Shown here: piece by piece, positions 1 to 8,843 of the stretch | How the letters are laid out: every line of letters begins with the position of its first letter | Position numbering within the stretch: position 1 is the first letter of the stretch | Assembly (NCBI RefSeq): GCF_002197845.1 | Contig: NZ_NIDE01000001.1 | Span: 558,001 to 622,000, forward strand | Reading direction: 5' to 3' | Length of the DNA: 64,000 bases | Origin: Fimbriiglobus ruber | GTDB lineage: Bacteria; Planctomycetota; Planctomycetia; Gemmatales; Gemmataceae | Notes under the pieces: model-generated | Database searches by the model: none | Seen by the model: only the letters and a program-made list of their open reading frames with translations | What the model was told of the DNA's origin: nothing | Made by a program: the position numbers and the translations under genes

Positions 1-3000
1 ACGGTTTCCAGCACCGGAATGAGTTCATCGAGATACTTCCGGCTTTCGCCGTGTCGGTACGAGACGAAGAGTGTCCGCCGCGGAAACGCCGGCCGGAGAA
101 GGTCGACCGGCGATGGTTCCTTGGCTGGGATCGGTGTAGCCGGCAGAGTGGGCCGCACGGTGCGGTCGAAGAAATCGGACGGATCGAGTCGCGGAGCCTG
201 GCCTAACGGCAACTGAGTCACGATTTCCACGAGCGTTTGGAGCAAGTCCCTGGCCCGGGGACCGCGGGCATTCAGGACAATAGCCCCTGCCCCGCTCGTG
301 GTGTCGGTCGACGACTCGGCCCGAATCAGCACTTCGCTGTCGGTCTTCTTGTCATAAAACCAGCAGCCGAACTTCCAGTAATCGCCGAATTCGCCAACCT
401 TGTCGCCGAGCTTCGACAGAAAGCTGCGGATCACGCCATCGTGGAGGAAATCGTAGCGGAGCGAAACGGTCGCGTCGGGCTTTTTCAACATCTCGCGAAA
501 GCGGATCGCCCGGTGTTCGTCCCAGGGCGGAAGCAACTCTGGGGCGACGTATTCGTGTTCTTGGCTCTGGCCCGACACCTGACGCACTTGGAAGCAGATG
601 CCACACTGTTCCATCAATCCCAGAAACGTCCGCTGCTCTTCGATCGTGTAAGGCGGAAGGTTTTTCGCCCGCCGGTCGGGTGCCCAAACGTAGTGATCCA
701 ATTTTTCGCGGGTGAACCGGCCCCGAGCTGAACCGATCGCGTCTTGCAACTCGGCCCGCCGGTGGAAGACGGTGTAAACCGCGTCCAATGCCCAGGTCTG
801 GTCGATAATGACCCGGTCCCCGAACACACCGCCGCGGAAAAAGACGACGCCACTTCGGTGGAGAAATTTGAGGAACTCGGCCGTATTGCTGATTCCGCCC
901 GTCTCCTCGCATAACGTGTCGAATTCGGCCCGGGTGATCGTTCGCTTTCGCGTCGCTTCGGGCTCCGCTTGCATGGCCCGAATCTGCTCACGCACCTTTG
1001 CGCGGCCCTTGCCAATCAGCGGTTGTTTTCGGCGGGCGTACAATTCGCCGACCGCCTCCGTCAGCGCATCCTGAAGACCGCCCGCGCCGCGATTCGTCCG
1101 CGCGCTGTACTTTAGGCTGTAGACATTCGGAAAATCATCCGGAGCCGGTTCGACCGGTAGCGGTCGCTCGTCGACCTTGGATTCGCACTGGCTCTGGACC
1201 AGTATTACCGGGCTTTCGACCCGCCGCCGACCGTCTCGCTCGATACCGGCCAGACCGCGGAGGTAGTCGAACCAGTAAGCGAGCGGGCGGTCGCGGATGG
1301 TGAAGCCGCCCTCCTCGAATTCCCGACCCTGTTCGTGATCGTGCGTCCAGAGCAAGAAAAAGACTGCCTGCCCTTGAAGAAAAAGAGCATGCGAACCGAG
1401 ATAAATGTCCTGTCCGCCAAAATCCCAGAGATTCAGACGGATCGGGTGTGGAAGTCCGTCGATCTCCAGCGGAAACGTGCCGAGCCTGACCCCGTGGGTC
1501 GAAGGTTCATCGTCCGAACCGTAATCGAGGCCCATCAACCGACGAGCGAGTTTCGTTTTCCCCACACGGCCGTTGCCAAGCAAAAACACTTTTAGTTCCG
1601 CATCACCTTTGGGATCGGCACCGAGGTCATCAAAGTAAGCTCGCACAGCACTGAGGACATTCTCATAACTTTCTTCCCCACAAATGGCGGCAGGTAAATC
1701 TGTGCAATCGGCCTGGTACAACTTGAGATCATTGAGTCTCGGCAACAATTTCTGTATTCGACCGAAATAGAGATTACTACACCTGGACAGGTCCAGGGTG
1801 GTGAGGGTGGTCAGTTCGGACAGCGGGCCGATGTCCGACACGCCTGTGCACCCGGAAAGGTCCAGGGTGGTGAGGGCGGTCAGTGCGGACAGCGGGCCGA
1901 CGTCCGACACGCCCTCGCACCTGGACAGGTTGAGGGTGGTGAGGGCGGTCAGTTCGGACAGCGGGCCGACGTCCGACACGCCCGTGCACCCGGACAGGTT
2001 GAGGGTGGTGAGGGCGGTCAGTTCGGACAGCGGGCCGACGTCCGACACGCCCTCGCACCTGGACAGGTTGAGGGTGGTGAGGGCGGACAGTTCGGACAGC
2101 GGGCCGACGTCCGACACGCCCGTGCACCAAGACAGGTCCAAGGTGGTGAGGGCGGACAGTTCGGACAGCGGGCCGACGTCCGACACGCCCGTGCACCAAG
2201 ACAGGTCCAAGGTGATGAGGGCGGTCAGGTCGGACAGCGGGCCGACGTCCGACACGTCCGTGCACCCGGACAGGATGAGGGTGGTGAGGGCGGTCAGTTC
2301 GGACAGCGGGCCGACGTCCGACACGCCCTCGCACCTGGACAGGTTGAGGGTGGTGAGGGCGGACAGTTCGGACAGCGGGCCGATGTCCGACACGCCTGTG
2401 CACCCGGAAAGGTCCAGGGTGGTGAGGGCGGTCAGTGCGGACAGCGGGCCGACGTCCGACACGCCCGTGCACCCGGACAGGTTGAGGGTGGTGAGGGCGG
2501 ACAGTTCGGACAGCGGGCCGACGTCCGACACGCCCGTGCACCTGGACAGGTCGAGGGTGGTGAGGGCGGTCAGTTCGGACAGCGGGCCGACGTCCGACAC
2601 GCCCGTGCACCCGGACAGGTCGAGGGTGGTGAGGGCGGACAGTTCGGACAGCGGGCCGACGTCCGACACGCCCGTTTCTGACAGGTCGAGGGTGGTGAGT
2701 GCGGACAGTTCGGACAGCGGGCCGACGTCCGACACGCCCGTGCACCCGGACAAGTTCAGGGTGGTGAGTGCGGACAGTTCGGACAGCGGGCCGACGTCCG
2801 ACACGCCCGTGCACCAAGACAGGTTGAGGGTGGTGAGGGCGGTCAGTTCGGCCAGCGGGCCGACGTCCGACACGCCCGTGCACCCGGACAAGTTCAGGGT
2901 GGTGAGGGCGGACAGTTCGGCCAGCGGGCCGACGTCCGACACGCCCGTATATGACAGGTCGAGGGTGGTGAGGGCGGTCAGTTCGGCCAGCGGGCCGACG

Positions 3001-3470
3001 TCCGACACGCCCCTGCACTCGTACAAGTTCAGGGTGGTGAGGGCGGACAGTTCGGACAGCGGGCCGACGTCCGACACGCCCGTTTCTGACAGGTCGAGGG
3101 TGGTGAGGGCGGTCAGTTCGGACAACGGGCTGAGGTCGATGACTTTGGAGTAGGGCAAACTAAGAGTCGTTACCTTGAATAGAGAGCCGATCGCTCCGAT
3201 ATCCTTAACCCGATCCGGTCGCTCTTGTATAAATTCCCAATTAATTTGCCCGTCACGACTAACGGGCTTGTGGGTTCCAAGGGCCAGAATTGTCAGCTGA
3301 TTTCTGAGAAGCCCGATCTCTTCTGGCACCACTTCAATCGGCAAGTCGCCGAGATCGAGAAGGTCATCGCCCATTTTCAACGCAACTTGAATCCGGCGAA
3401 GCGCTTCGGCTTGAGCTTCTTCGGGCGTCATGGGCGGCTCAGGGAGATCGGCGGTGTGTTCTCCAATCAT
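1..3470 (-). CDS. LRR-Roc-COR-TIR protein (Roco family GTPase), 3' end cut by window edge
   Basis: The reading frame is open from ATG at 3470 down to base 1 and continues off the window; about 1156 residues are visible. Domain order: a short helical N-terminus (residues 1-105); about 20 leucine-rich repeats of 22-23 residues with core TTLDLSxTGVSDVGPLSEL (about 107-565); a Roc GTPase with P-loop GNGRVGKT (from residue 632), switch II LWDFGGQD and G5-like SAR, but a G4 reading QSQCE instead of NKxD; a COR-like region; then near residue 1128 LFVSYRHGESRKYLDEL, which matches the start of a TIR domain. In Roco proteins the LRR senses and Roc-COR is a nucleotide-dependent dimerisation switch; TIR domains act as NADases or adaptors. 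An immune or stress-signalling role is inference. The TIR call rests on only about 28 residues. Other open frames over the repeats are shadows. Confidence 0.85.
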   Translation of the reverse strand, partial: MIGEHTADLPEPPMTPEEAQAEALRRIQVALKMGDDLLDLGDLPIEVVPEEIGLLRNQLTILALGTHKPVSRDGQINWEFIQERPDRVKDIGAIGSLFKVTTLSLPYSKVIDLSPLSELTALTTLDLSETGVSDVGPLSELSALTTLNLYECRGVSDVGPLAELTALTTLDLSYTGVSDVGPLAELSALTTLNLSGCTGVSDVGPLAELTALTTLNLSWCTGVSDVGPLSELSALTTLNLSGCTGVSDVGPLSELSALTTLDLSETGVSDVGPLSELSALTTLDLSGCTGVSDVGPLSELTALTTLDLSRCTGVSDVGPLSELSALTTLNLSGCTGVSDVGPLSALTALTTLDLSGCTGVSDIGPLSELSALTTLNLSRCEGVSDVGPLSELTALTTLILSGCTDVSDVGPLSDLTALITLDLSWCTGVSDVGPLSELSALTTLDLSWCTGVSDVGPLSELSALTTLNLSRCEGVSDVGPLSELTALTTLNLSGCTGVSDVGPLSELTALTTLNLSRCEGVSDVGPLSALTALTTLDLSGCTGVSDIGPLSELTTLTTLDLSRCSNLYFGRIQKLLPRLNDLKLYQADCTDLPAAICGEESYENVLSAVRAYFDDLGADPKGDAELKVFLLGNGRVGKTKLARRLMGLDYGSDDEPSTHGVRLGTFPLEIDGLPHPIRLNLWDFGGQDIYLGSHALFLQGQAVFFLLWTHDHEQGREFEEGGFTIRDRPLAYWFDYLRGLAGIERDGRRRVESPVILVQSQCESKVDERPLPVEPAPDDFPNVYSLKYSARTNRGAGGLQDALTEAVGELYARRKQPLIGKGRAKVREQIRAMQAEPEATRKRTITRAEFDTLCEETGGISNTAEFLKFLHRSGVVFFRGGVFGDRVIIDQTWALDAVYTVFHRRAELQDAIGSARGRFTREKLDHYVWAPDRRAKNLPPYTIEEQRTFLGLMEQCGICFQVRQVSGQSQEHEYVAPELLPPWDEHRAIRFREMLKKPDATVSLRYDFLHDGVIRSFLSKLGDKVGEFGDYWKFGCWFYDKKTDSEVLIRAESSTDTTSGAGAIVLNARGPRARDLLQTLVEIVTQLPLGQAPRLDPSDFFDRTVRPTLPATPIPAKEPSPVDLLRPAFPRRTLFVSYRHGESRKYLDELIPVLET
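1780..3165 (-). repeat. Array of 20 near-identical 66/69-bp units encoding the LRRs
   Basis: The word GTGGTGAG (one unit GTGATGAG) recurs at 1798, 1867, 1936, 2005, 2074, 2143, 2212, 2281, 2350, 2419, 2488, 2557, 2626, 2692, 2761, 2830, 2899, 2965, 3034 and 3100. The spacing is always 69 or 66 bp, so the frame is kept. Units differ at only a few bases, mostly at the segment reading GTGCACCCGGACAGG or its variants, which encodes the variable LRR position. Similarity at the DNA level, including third codon positions, points to recent expansion or gene conversion rather than protein-level selection alone. Confidence 0.95.
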
Positions 3471-3700
3471 GCTAACAGCACGCACTTCCGATCGTCAACG
3501 ACGCACGCCGCGAATGCCGATCGCTGGAATCGCCGCACTGCCCTACATTGCCCGGCGGAAGATCCTTTCTCGACCCAGCTGATCCGCGTTCCACGGCGCT
3601 CATCCGCGGCAAGCGTTCCCGTCTTGACAACCCGCCCCCCGAATTGGGCACAATAGCCGCGAAGGATCAGTCCGCTCACGATACGGCAGGAGGCCGGCCG

Positions 3701-5053
3701 ATGCCCGTTCCGTTTTGGTTGAAGAAGCTGCTGGTCCGCACGGGCACCGCACAGTTCCTGCCCGCCGCGAAACGCCTCGCCGACGGCGATACCGACTCCC
3801 TCCGGTATTACTCCGACCGCGTCCTCGGCGCCCCAATCGCGGGCCTGCTCGACCCGGCCACCTTCCCGGCCGCCGGCGCGGGCGTCATCAACCTCGATCA
3901 GGCGGCCCCGTCGTTCGATTCGCCCGTCTCCGGCGGCCGACTCGCGGCCGACCGACAAGGGAACCCGCACCCCTGGGGACAGCCCGCACTCCGCACCGCC
4001 GTCGCCGACCTCTACCGCCGCCGCGACGGCCGCACCCTCGACCCCACCCGCGACGTGCTCATCACGCACGGGGCGACCGGGGCTTACGCGGCCGTCCTCG
4101 ACGCGTTCGTGAACCCGGGCAACAAGGTCGTCCTCTTCGACCCCTGCTCGCCGCTGTTCGCCCTCGGAGCCAAATCCCGGCGAGCGGCCGTCCGCTGGGT
4201 GCCGACGCGGACCGAAGACGGGAAGCTGAAGTTCGAGGCGGACGTCTTCGCCCGGGCCATGCGCGGTGCGAAGTTACTGGTCGTATCCGACCCCGGCAAC
4301 CCGACCGGGGCGACACTCGGCGAAGAAGAATTGGGCCAGATCGCCTGGGCCGCGAACCGATCGGACGCCCTGATTTACCTCGACGAATCGTTCTCCCGGG
4401 TTCGGTACGAAGGCGACCCCTGCCCGCTCGCGACCCTGCCAGGCGCCGACCGCCGCACCCTCTCGGCCGGCTCACTCACGCAAGGCTACGGCCTCGGCTC
4501 GGCCCGCGTCGGCTGGTTGACCGGCCCGCACCGGCTGATTCGCGCGTGTACGCTGACCGCGAACCTGTCCGCCCCTTACGTCCCGACGATTTGCCAGCAG
4601 ATCGCGTTGCGGGCTGTACAGGCCGAGGAAGAGTTGTTCGGCCCCGTCCTCGAAGAATTCCGAGCCCGCCGCAAGTACGCCTTCGAGCGTCTGAAGACGC
4701 TCGGGTTCACCCCGACGTGGCCGGCCGGCGGCTTCTTCTTCTGGGTATCCGTGGCCGAACTCGGATTCGACGGCCGGACGTTCGCCGAGCGGTTGCAGAA
4801 AGAGCAAGGCGTCCTCGTCGGCCCCGGCTGCGCGTTCGGTCCGAGCGGAGGCAGTTTTGTACGCATCAGCTTCGCAGCCGAGGACGGCCGCCTGCGCGAA
4901 GGGCTGGGCCGGTTGGCGACCTTCATTGAGGGGTTGAAGGAGAAAACCGCGGTTGAGCCGAGGACCAAGCCCGCTCCGACCGACGGTGCCGCGGTTGAGA
5001 CCGAAGTGGGGGAAGAAAAGGAAAAAGCTCCGCCGGCCTTCAGCCGCGTCTGA
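3701..5053 (+). CDS. Fold-type I aminotransferase-like protein lacking the PLP lysine
   Basis: 450 aa. AGGAGG at 3688-3693 fixes the ATG at 3701 over the upstream in-frame ATG at 3548. Class I/II aminotransferase landmarks are present: HGATGAY (PLP phosphate region), SDPGNPTGATL, YLDESFSRVRYEG (Asp for the pyridine nitrogen) and a C-terminal FVRISF (Arg for the substrate carboxylate). In the segment normally reading S-x-[ST]-K-x-[YF]-G-L-x-G-x-R-x-G, this protein reads SLTQGYGLGSARVGW, so the Schiff-base lysine is glutamine. Without it, ordinary transamination is not expected; the protein may be a non-catalytic binder or use another lysine. The C-terminus ends in a charged, proline-rich tail. 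It is divergent from the Roco gene and 230 bp away. Confidence 0.85.
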   Translation: MPVPFWLKKLLVRTGTAQFLPAAKRLADGDTDSLRYYSDRVLGAPIAGLLDPATFPAAGAGVINLDQAAPSFDSPVSGGRLAADRQGNPHPWGQPALRTAVADLYRRRDGRTLDPTRDVLITHGATGAYAAVLDAFVNPGNKVVLFDPCSPLFALGAKSRRAAVRWVPTRTEDGKLKFEADVFARAMRGAKLLVVSDPGNPTGATLGEEELGQIAWAANRSDALIYLDESFSRVRYEGDPCPLATLPGADRRTLSAGSLTQGYGLGSARVGWLTGPHRLIRACTLTANLSAPYVPTICQQIALRAVQAEEELFGPVLEEFRARRKYAFERLKTLGFTPTWPAGGFFFWVSVAELGFDGRTFAERLQKEQGVLVGPGCAFGPSGGSFVRISFAAEDGRLREGLGRLATFIEGLKEKTAVEPRTKPAPTDGAAVETEVGEEKEKAPPAFSRV

Positions 5054-6396: not shown

Positions 6397-8334
6397 ATGC
6401 TGTTGATGAGTTGTACCAACCTGTCTCGCGGGTACGATGCGAATCCCTTATTCGAGGACGTGGCGTTCGAGCTGCACGCCGGGGACCGGGTCGGGTTCGT
6501 CGGGCCGAACGGTGCCGGCAAGACGACTCTAATGAAGATCCTGTCCGGCGTGGACACGCCAGACACGGGAGCGGTCCGCGTCCACGCCGGCGCACGGCTC
6601 GGCATGCTCCTTCAGGTGGCCGAATTTCCCCCGGGCCGCACTCTCTTTCAGGAAGCCAAGTCCGCGTTCGACGAGCAACTCGCCACGCAGAACGAGTTGG
6701 TCGAAGTGGCCGAGCAGCTTTCAACCTGCACGGACGAGACACAGCGCAAGCAACTCGCTGCCCGCTTCGACCGGCTGAACGAAATCCTCCACGCGCAAGA
6801 CGCCTACCAGCTCGACCACAAGGTCGCCGACGTTCTTTCCGGCCTCGGCTTTCTCGAAGCCGATTACGACCGCGAAGTGCTGACCTTCAGCGGCGGTCAG
6901 CAGCGCCGCCTGTTACTGGCCAAGTTGCTCCTCTCGGCCCCGGACGTCATGCTCCTGGACGAACCGAGCAACCACCTCGACATTGCCACGACCGAATGGC
7001 TCGAAGACTACCTGGCCCACCAGCCCCAGGGCATGATTGTCATCAGCCACGACCGGTACTTTCTCGACAAAGTCTCCACCCGGATCTTTGAACTCCATAA
7101 CCAGAAAATCACCGCGTACCCCGGGAATTACCACCAATACGTCCGCCTGCGCGACGAGCGCTACGAGCGGCAGTTGAAGGAGTGGGAGTCGCAGCGCGAG
7201 TTCATCGAGAAGCAGGAAGAGTACATCCGCCGCGCTCACTACGGGCAATTGGCGAAACAGGCCCAGTCGCGCATGAAGGTGCTGGACAAGCTCGAAACGG
7301 TCGACCGCCCGACCCGCGTGGAAGGGCCGAACATCCATTTCAGCGAGGTGTCGCGGTCCGGTGACGTGGTATTTCACGTCGAAGACCTCGGCAAGCGGTT
7401 CGGCGACAAGGTGTTGTTCAAGGATCTGAATTTCGACGTGCAGCGCGGCAAGCGGCTCGGGATCATGGGCCCGAACGGCTGCGGCAAGACGACCTTGCTC
7501 AAGATTCTTCTGGGCGACGAGGAGCCGACAGCCGGCGAGGTCCAGCGCGGGCACCTCGTTTTCCCGGGCTACCTCGACCAGCACCTCAAGCTACTCCCCG
7601 AAGACCAACAAGTGATCCGGGCCGTCTGGCCGGAGCCCGACCCTTCGATCACCGAGCAGAAAATGCGCGACCTGCTCGGCGCCTTCGGCCTCCAGGGCGA
7701 AATCGTCGAGCAGAAAGTCGGTCTCCTGTCCGGCGGCGAGCGGAGCCGGGCCGCGCTGGCGAAGCTCACCGTTGCCGGCGCGAACGTGTTGATCCTGGAC
7801 GAACCGACCAACCACCTCGACTTATGGGCATGCGACTCGCTCGAAGATGCGATCCGGGCCTTCGAGGGGACCGTGATCGTGGTCAGCCACGACCGCTATT
7901 TCCTCAACAGGGTGGCCGATTTGCTCGTGGTCTTCGACGGCGGCCGGGTCGAGGTCGTGTACGGGAATTACGACACGTATCAATTGCTGGTCAACGCCCG
8001 CGCCGAAGCGGCCAAGGCCGCCGGCACCAAGGCAGGCAACCAGTCGCGCAAGGGTGACGTTGCTCCGTCAACTTCCGCTGCTAACGCGGACACTGGTGCC
8101 TTGGGCAAGACCAAGCGAAAGCGCAAATACCCGTACCGGAAGGTCGCGGAACTGGAAGTGGATGTGGCGAAAACGGAGGCACAAATCACCGCCCTCGAAG
8201 CATCGCTCGTTTCCCCGGAAATCTACAAGGACGGCTCGAAGGTCACGAAGACCATGAACGACCTGGAAGCGGCGAAAACGAAGCTGGCCCAGCTTTACGA
8301 ACACTGGGAAGAGGCGGTCGAATTGAACGGCTGA
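6397..8334 (+). CDS. ABC-F family ATPase (Uup-like)
   Basis: 645 aa with two ABC cassettes and no membrane segment, so a soluble ABC-F protein. Cassette 1: Walker A GPNGAGKTT (about residue 36), signature FSGGQQRR, Walker B VMLLDEPSNHLD. Cassette 2: Walker A GPNGCGKTT, signature LSGGERSRAAL, Walker B NVLILDEPTNHLD. The cassettes are joined by the charged helical linker typical of ABC-F proteins. After cassette 2 comes a basic, Ala/Lys-rich segment and a C-terminal helical stretch resembling the Uup C-terminal domain. ABC-F proteins bind the ribosome or nucleic acid and resolve stalled translation or give antibiotic protection; the subfamily is not certain. A second in-frame ATG at 6406 is an alternative start. 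Confidence 0.93.
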   Translation: MLLMSCTNLSRGYDANPLFEDVAFELHAGDRVGFVGPNGAGKTTLMKILSGVDTPDTGAVRVHAGARLGMLLQVAEFPPGRTLFQEAKSAFDEQLATQNELVEVAEQLSTCTDETQRKQLAARFDRLNEILHAQDAYQLDHKVADVLSGLGFLEADYDREVLTFSGGQQRRLLLAKLLLSAPDVMLLDEPSNHLDIATTEWLEDYLAHQPQGMIVISHDRYFLDKVSTRIFELHNQKITAYPGNYHQYVRLRDERYERQLKEWESQREFIEKQEEYIRRAHYGQLAKQAQSRMKVLDKLETVDRPTRVEGPNIHFSEVSRSGDVVFHVEDLGKRFGDKVLFKDLNFDVQRGKRLGIMGPNGCGKTTLLKILLGDEEPTAGEVQRGHLVFPGYLDQHLKLLPEDQQVIRAVWPEPDPSITEQKMRDLLGAFGLQGEIVEQKVGLLSGGERSRAALAKLTVAGANVLILDEPTNHLDLWACDSLEDAIRAFEGTVIVVSHDRYFLNRVADLLVVFDGGRVEVVYGNYDTYQLLVNARAEAAKAAGTKAGNQSRKGDVAPSTSAANADTGALGKTKRKRKYPYRKVAELEVDVAKTEAQITALEASLVSPEIYKDGSKVTKTMNDLEAAKTKLAQLYEHWEEAVELNG

Positions 8335-8363: not shown

Positions 8364-8843
8364 TTATTTTTTAAAGTCGTAGACTGTCACGCGCACGCCG
8401 CGATCGCATAGGTTTTTGACAAGAAGCGGCTCGATCTCTTCCCACTTCCCGCCCGCCAGTCCGCAGCCGATCCGAGGCAGGTGGACCGACGCACCGAGCA
8501 TCTTTGCCGCATCGCCGACCGCCGCCAGAGCCGTATCGATTGCGGGATAACGCACCGGCGGGCCTTTGGACCCGGTGTGGATGCCGCGCTGGCCGATCAT
8601 GTTCGCGACCCAGATGTACGACTCGACCTGGACGAGTTGCACGGCCCCGAGCGCGAAGTCGTTTTCCGACCGGCCCGCGTGCCACTTCCGGTATTCGACC
8701 TCCGGTCCCGACCAGCGTGCCGAAATCGCCAGGACGAACCCGGCGCCCCAGGCTCCGATGTCGTTGCAGACGTGCGCGACGATTTTGTTGCCGGCCGCCT
8801 GCGGGCAGGTCGCGTCGCCCTGGAGGTATCGGATCTCGGTCAC
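8364..8843 (-). CDS. Macrodomain protein (ADP-ribose binding/hydrolase type)
   Basis: 159 aa, a stand-alone macrodomain. MTEIRYLQGDAT is the beta-strand and Asp that contact adenine; IVAHVCNDIGAWGAGF is the loop that holds ADP-ribose in the ALC1/TARG1-like branch; PRIGCGLAGGKWEEIEPLL is the phosphate-binding loop. That branch removes ADP-ribose from protein or DNA, or hydrolyses O-acetyl-ADP-ribose. It is transcribed away from the DUF1549 gene and convergent with the ABC-F gene (29 bp apart). No partner ADP-ribosyltransferase is seen nearby. Confidence 0.88.
   Translation of the reverse strand: MTEIRYLQGDATCPQAAGNKIVAHVCNDIGAWGAGFVLAISARWSGPEVEYRKWHAGRSENDFALGAVQLVQVESYIWVANMIGQRGIHTGSKGPPVRYPAIDTALAAVGDAAKMLGASVHLPRIGCGLAGGKWEEIEPLLVKNLCDRGVRVTVYDFKK

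Follow-up and report, generated by a model that had tools for sequence, protein, structure and literature searches.

What does a protein do that keeps a complete aminotransferase fold without the lysine that should form the Schiff base with PLP? The window analysed here, a stretch of 64,000 nucleotides from Fimbriiglobus ruber, raises this question through a gene at 3701–5053 on the forward strand (ATG at 3701, TGA at 5051–5053), which encodes 450 amino acids and is preceded, 7 bases 5' of the ATG, by a Shine-Dalgarno-like AGGAGG read by eye (3688–3693, +). The product passes the tests for the class I/II aminotransferase fold both by profile score and by three-dimensional model. A profile search matched Pfam PF00155 to residues 89–403 with 126.2 bits, against a curated cut-off of 19.7, and HMMER aligned the protein with solved class I aminotransferases over approximately residues 45–412. 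The AlphaFold2 model shows the full fold with confidence (mean pLDDT 88.5, pTM 0.87), with pLDDT below 50 at residues 419–450. Class I aminotransferases were the best of the 50 structural matches listed (Z 43–48), and the first, tied with others, was 5wml, a lysine-to-alanine mutant of plant prephenate aminotransferase. The Pyrococcus aspartate/aromatic aminotransferase 1gd9/1dju and the Mycobacterium tuberculosis protein 2o0r (E 9e-36 by sequence, Z 47.9 and 48.0 by structure) share with the window protein the whole fold and most pocket residues; the window protein differs from them in the replaced lysine, in extra N-terminal helices and in a C-terminal linker ending in an F-S-R peptide. The N-terminal helical extension (residues 1–43; 3701–3829, +), placed ahead of the usual aminotransferase start, is common to the lysine-less and most lysine-bearing members of the family. 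The closest NCBIfam models were those of GntC and of capreomycidine synthase VioD (NF041364 and TIGR03947), from which the window protein differs by the missing catalytic lysine. The best of them, NF041364 (GntC), gave 201.5 bits, far below its membership cut-off of 415, and was also the top NCBIfam match of 7/7 relatives tested, lysine-bearing or not.

The preliminary description had proposed that glutamine replaces the Schiff-base lysine while nearby PLP-binding residues are retained, and both points were borne out. Sequence, HMMER alignment and family rows place Gln261 (CAA, 4481–4483, +) at the lysine site, within the motif S258-L-T-Q261-G-Y-G-L-G-S-A-R269-V-G-W and opposite the lysine of solved aminotransferases, e.g. 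'FSKTFAMTGWRLGF'. There is no other lysine within the motif, and none is aligned at the site. The NPTG motif is present, as are the other features of a functional PLP aminotransferase: Asp228 (4382–4384, +), matching the Asp paired with the ring nitrogen of PLP, and Ser258 (4472–4474, +), counterpart of the PLP-phosphate Ser, both invariant in 53/53 rows; Arg269 (4505–4507, +), counterpart of the PLP-phosphate Arg; and Arg388 (4862–4864, +), counterpart of the Arg that holds the substrate carboxylate. Asn200 (4298–4300, +), which we take to correspond to Asn194 of AspAT, is present too.

PF00155 was found at 17 places in the genome; with the window gene itself discounted and a gene that is split in two counted only once, these amount to 15 other genes. 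The alignment covered the site in eight of these, all with lysine; two further genes (L179 and L184) have a lysine, identified by eye, in a different but recognisable motif, and the remaining five lie outside the alignment over the site. In other bacteria and in archaea, lysine is present in 54/54 distant homologues (L121–L174). A PF00155 gene that keeps its lysine, located approximately 14 kb ahead of the window, is apparently split over two frames (G000:C1:542707-543701).

Within Gemmataceae, a family of soil and water bacteria, relatives of the window protein (30–64% identity) were detected in 50 of 95 genomes at E<=1e-50; the relatives found by contig scan are the best 80 of 308. The site holds lysine in only 10 of the 50 family members, and the other 40 carry Q (22), I (6), P (3), A (2), Y (2), W (2), H (1), G (1) or V (1). 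Two more distant lysine-bearing relatives (L091 and L092) are also from Gemmataceae, and the lysine-bearing relative L014 belongs to another family of the class. Used as a query at E<=1e-60, a strict threshold that missed the Ile/Val and Trp members, L014 matched 40 of 397 genomes of the class, 39 of them Gemmataceae, and across the phylum 1 of 294 genomes, the window genome itself. The window genome is a draft in 20 contigs, which would allow for a sequencing or assembly error at the codon, but this explanation is ruled out for all practical purposes by the glutamine in 22 separate clade genomes and the absence of lysine from 40. Homologues with lysine, which had been named as a possible sign of such an error, do exist; they form other branches and so mark the ancestral state, not a misread base.

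The window protein falls in a clade of 30 lysine-less proteins with support 93/99.6 in a 49-row tree, for which the site columns and the tail were masked and four rows left out: L018, L015 and L079, which are long or uncertain, and L094, truncated at the end of a contig. In a 70-row tree, 32 lysine-less rows (Q, P, Y, A, H, G, W) group together with support 85/94, and the remaining ones are a 7-row Ile/Val clade and one long-branched Tyr row. Parsimony counts three losses on the 70-row tree and two on the masked 49-row tree, but the data do not reject a single loss for all (p-AU 0.155 when 40 rows were constrained to group, 0.406 for 37). Within this one bacterial family the lysine has probably been lost two or three times, and once at the minimum; the Ile/Val clade probably lost it independently. 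Glutamine did not prove fixed in the clade: of the 30 proteins, 22 have Q, three have P, two have A, and Y, H and G occur once each, so glutamine is only the commonest replacement, although it reaches 16 of 17 members in genus g17.

This variability bears on whether the protein could be an enzyme of changed chemistry that holds PMP or PLP non-covalently, without a Schiff-base lysine, in the manner of ColD or E1. Asp228, Ser258 and Arg388 are invariant in the clade and Arg269 nearly so (R in 28/30), and, in the available part of PMC8987622, the ColD and E1 3-dehydratases use histidine in place of lysine. Those enzymes, however, retain their catalytic histidine, and no fixed substitute was met here: the residue varies within the clade and is I, V or W elsewhere, and eight changes at the site were counted on the tree among the lysine-less rows other than Ile/Val. 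Nor has a lysine appeared anew in the clade; among positions with at least 80% Lys, only K9 and K191 were found, and the lysine-bearing relatives also have mainly K or R at both. Another lysine in the aligned position, the other way in which the first reading might have failed, was therefore neither aligned nor newly fixed. Given that glutamine itself is not conserved, new chemistry at this residue, which had been suggested initially, is quite unlikely, and we rate a lysine-free enzyme of the ColD/E1 kind as unlikely too.

If the site no longer serves catalysis, the question becomes which parts of the pocket were released with it. We compared variability in 29 clade proteins (leaving out the frameshifted L047) with that in 12 full-length lysine-bearing proteins. 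The lysine site, invariant in the lysine-bearing set, stands at the 58th percentile of variability in the clade; Asn200 moved from the 9th to the 52nd percentile (N in 23/30 clade proteins), and Gly93 from zero to the 73rd. Gly124, Asp228, Ser258 and Arg388 kept zero entropy after the loss, and 58 of 352 core positions are invariant across the 29 proteins. Loop residues 73–93 are variable in the lysine-less clade and of low confidence in the AlphaFold model. With the site, Asn200 and Gly93 drifting while other contacts stay constant, the anchoring residue is free to vary and the loop near 73–93 is relaxed, whereas most of the contacts to phosphate, ring nitrogen and carboxylate persist in the clade. 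Erosion has gone further in the Ile/Val proteins, where Arg269 is Asn in 6/7 and Asn200 is Ile in 5/7, with Arg388 present in 7/7 (30/30 in the larger clade); the loss of Arg269, and mostly of Asn200, speaks against PLP in these proteins.

A pocket that erodes in part might also belong to a decaying gene, relaxed or non-functional and heading for loss. At E<=1e-50, 45 of the 95 Gemmataceae genomes gave no match, the branches are long, one copy (L047, the same gene as L108) is frameshifted, and pairs that include the window gene reach a dN/dS of 0.45. Against this, dN/dS (NG86 throughout) ranged from 0.03 to 0.45 in 16 lysine-less pairs, with all 16 below 0.5 and 12 below 0.2, compared with 0.13–0.26 in three lysine-bearing pairs, and no pair in either set was near 1. 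The two pairs of the window gene (0.32 and 0.45) are among the highest, and their divergence makes the estimate weak. Given values below 0.5 in every lysine-less pair, we regard the gene as functional; the full-length open frames, the invariant core positions and a newly conserved C-terminal tail likewise make decay very unlikely.

Every mechanism of this PLP class set out in the available part of PMC9309667 runs through the lysine. Since, in addition, no substitute residue is conserved, the window protein has very likely lost its transaminase activity and, as the gene is not decaying, we read it as a repurposed pseudoenzyme. More fully, we consider it somewhat better than an even bet that this is an ordinary Gemmataceae PLP transaminase whose lysine was lost in the clade ancestor and which took on another job. 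The sequence-based support consists of the clade-wide loss of the lysine, the residue drift, purifying selection, the intact predicted fold and a C-terminal peptide confined to this branch. The original suggestion of a fold repurposed without its catalytic lysine is thus supported, with 40 of 50 members lysine-less and close pairs under purifying selection; a fixed glutamine and a changed chemistry are not, and ligand sensing or a role as structural partner, also suggested there, may apply.

A variable linker (residues 419–444; 4955–5032, +), predicted to be disordered from its pLDDT and the linker comparison, leads to the peptide P-A-F-S-R-V (5033–5050, +), recognised from the clade C-termini. 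An ending F-S-R-[V/A/S/T], mostly after P-x and behind a variable linker of ~12–37 residues, was found in 29/30 clade rows; in the 30th, the frameshifted L047, the F-S-R peptide lies in another frame. The ending was absent from all 12 full-length lysine-bearing proteins, from all seven Ile/Val proteins and from L018 and L079, and the Trp protein L015 ends in F-S-L-S. The tail and the loss of the lysine share a single branch, and one co-occurrence is all that links them. Among relatives such as L016, L068 and L091 the C-termini are of another kind: -AA closes 8/12 full-length lysine-bearing rows, and the Ile/Val proteins have a final A in 7/7 and -LAA in 6/7. We also considered P[AV]FSR[VA] as a genome-wide tag, and this was rejected: of three pattern hits, one is the window gene, one (L175) lies outside any listed coding frame ending there, and one (L177) is the C-terminus of an apparently spurious frame overlapping an integrase-like one. 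This leaves the window gene as the sole hit in its genome that plausibly codes for the motif.

A conserved free C-terminus on a flexible linker has the look of a docking peptide, and the window protein is probably a binding or regulatory protein. With transaminase activity lost, the old pocket would use Ser258, Arg269 and Arg388 to bind a small ligand non-covalently, be it PLP, PMP, an adduct of PLP with an amino acid or some other acidic molecule, and the free F-S-R-x end would dock to a putative partner that is regulated or scaffolded. The 30-protein clade could plausibly bind B6 without a covalent bond, the Ile/Val proteins less plausibly. Against this reading, the pocket is partly eroded in the clade, with Asn200 and Gly93 relaxed, and the invariant Asp228, Ser258 and glycines may have a structural rather than a ligand role. 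A more specific proposal, which we find doubtful, is a vitamin-B6 or amino-acid sensor in which non-covalently bound PLP, PMP or a PLP-amino acid adduct would gate exposure of F-S-R-x to the partner; in a bolder form, Arg388 would capture the carboxylate at the end of the same chain, which would then act as a self-inhibiting or gating ligand. AlphaFold gave no confident placement of the tail docked on the monomer. If the sensor proposal were true, it would be the loss of the lysine that made a sensor out of an enzyme.

In class I aminotransferases, which are dimers, each active site takes some residues from the other subunit, and the lysine-less protein could accordingly be an inactive subunit that shapes the site of a lysine-bearing paralogue. 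In favour of such a heteromer, eight lysine-bearing PF00155 paralogues were aligned in the same genome, and SPTLC1 is described in the available part of PMC11016064 as the lysine-less PLP-fold subunit of the serine palmitoyltransferase heterodimer. However, no lysine-bearing paralogue is close or co-located, the nearest in the genome being 29% identical and on another contig, and the loop 73–93, which would contribute to the partner's site, varies across the lysine-less clade and is predicted with low confidence. We therefore rate a heteromer as unlikely, although a distant partner may exist. What had seemed a tandem lysine-bearing partner in the sister genome G002 (ORF L086, -2935..-1687) proved to be a chance open frame with no real similarity.

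No conserved operon was found among the window and 40 context loci (L055–L094), and the window gene stands alone. A small convergent cupin gene lies downstream in 13 of the 40 loci, including lysine-bearing, Gln and Ile/Val ones; a secretin-N-like protein lies downstream in 15 of the 40, several of which end early; and SMC lies upstream in nine, covering both the Ile/Val clade and L091/L092. All three neighbours are absent from the window. These shared neighbours support the orthology of the lysine-bearing and Ile/Val relatives; they suggest no function. The secretin-N-like protein has ~440 amino acids and no Pfam match and, judged by eye, looks secreted, its C-terminal part resembling secretin-N.

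Other systems also contain PLP-fold proteins that lack the lysine. GcvPA, the lysine-less PLP-fold subunit of bacterial glycine decarboxylase, belongs to another PLP family and, unlike the window gene, is encoded beside its lysine-bearing partner. In human and mouse, SPTLC1, AZIN1/2 and PDXDC1 have a PLP fold without the catalytic lysine and are likewise kept by evolution; as far as the available text of PMC11016064 goes, they differ in being eukaryotic and of other PLP families, and SPTLC1 has a known lysine-bearing partner, whereas none is known for the window family. ColD and E1 come closer as aminotransferase-fold bacterial proteins without the lysine, but in the portion of PMC8987622 at hand they are active with a fixed catalytic histidine, while the site residue of the window family drifts. 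What sets the window family apart from the described cases, judged from its sequences, is that it belongs to the class I aminotransferases of bacteria and has neither a fixed substitute nor an evident partner. A search of open-licence papers returned no report on a lysine-less aminotransferase of Gemmataceae, and the lysine-less cases in the available parts of the cited papers are single proteins from other PLP families. Here, by contrast, members of one bacterial class I aminotransferase family differ between closely related genomes in whether they have the lysine, so that the path from enzyme to pseudoenzyme, the order in which the pocket eroded and the tail was gained, and the function acquired can be tested directly. 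The family is also a warning for annotation, since its lysine-less proteins score far above the PF00155 cut-off, as the window protein does, and would be named aminotransferases.

Two further features lie near the gene. A 69-bp tandem repeat at 1780–3137 (19.8 copies, 89% matches) is open on both strands, over 451 and 413 codons. At 8364–8843 on the reverse strand, a gene read by eye as encoding a macro-domain (ADP-ribose binding) protein adjoins an ABC-F-like gene (6397–8334, +).
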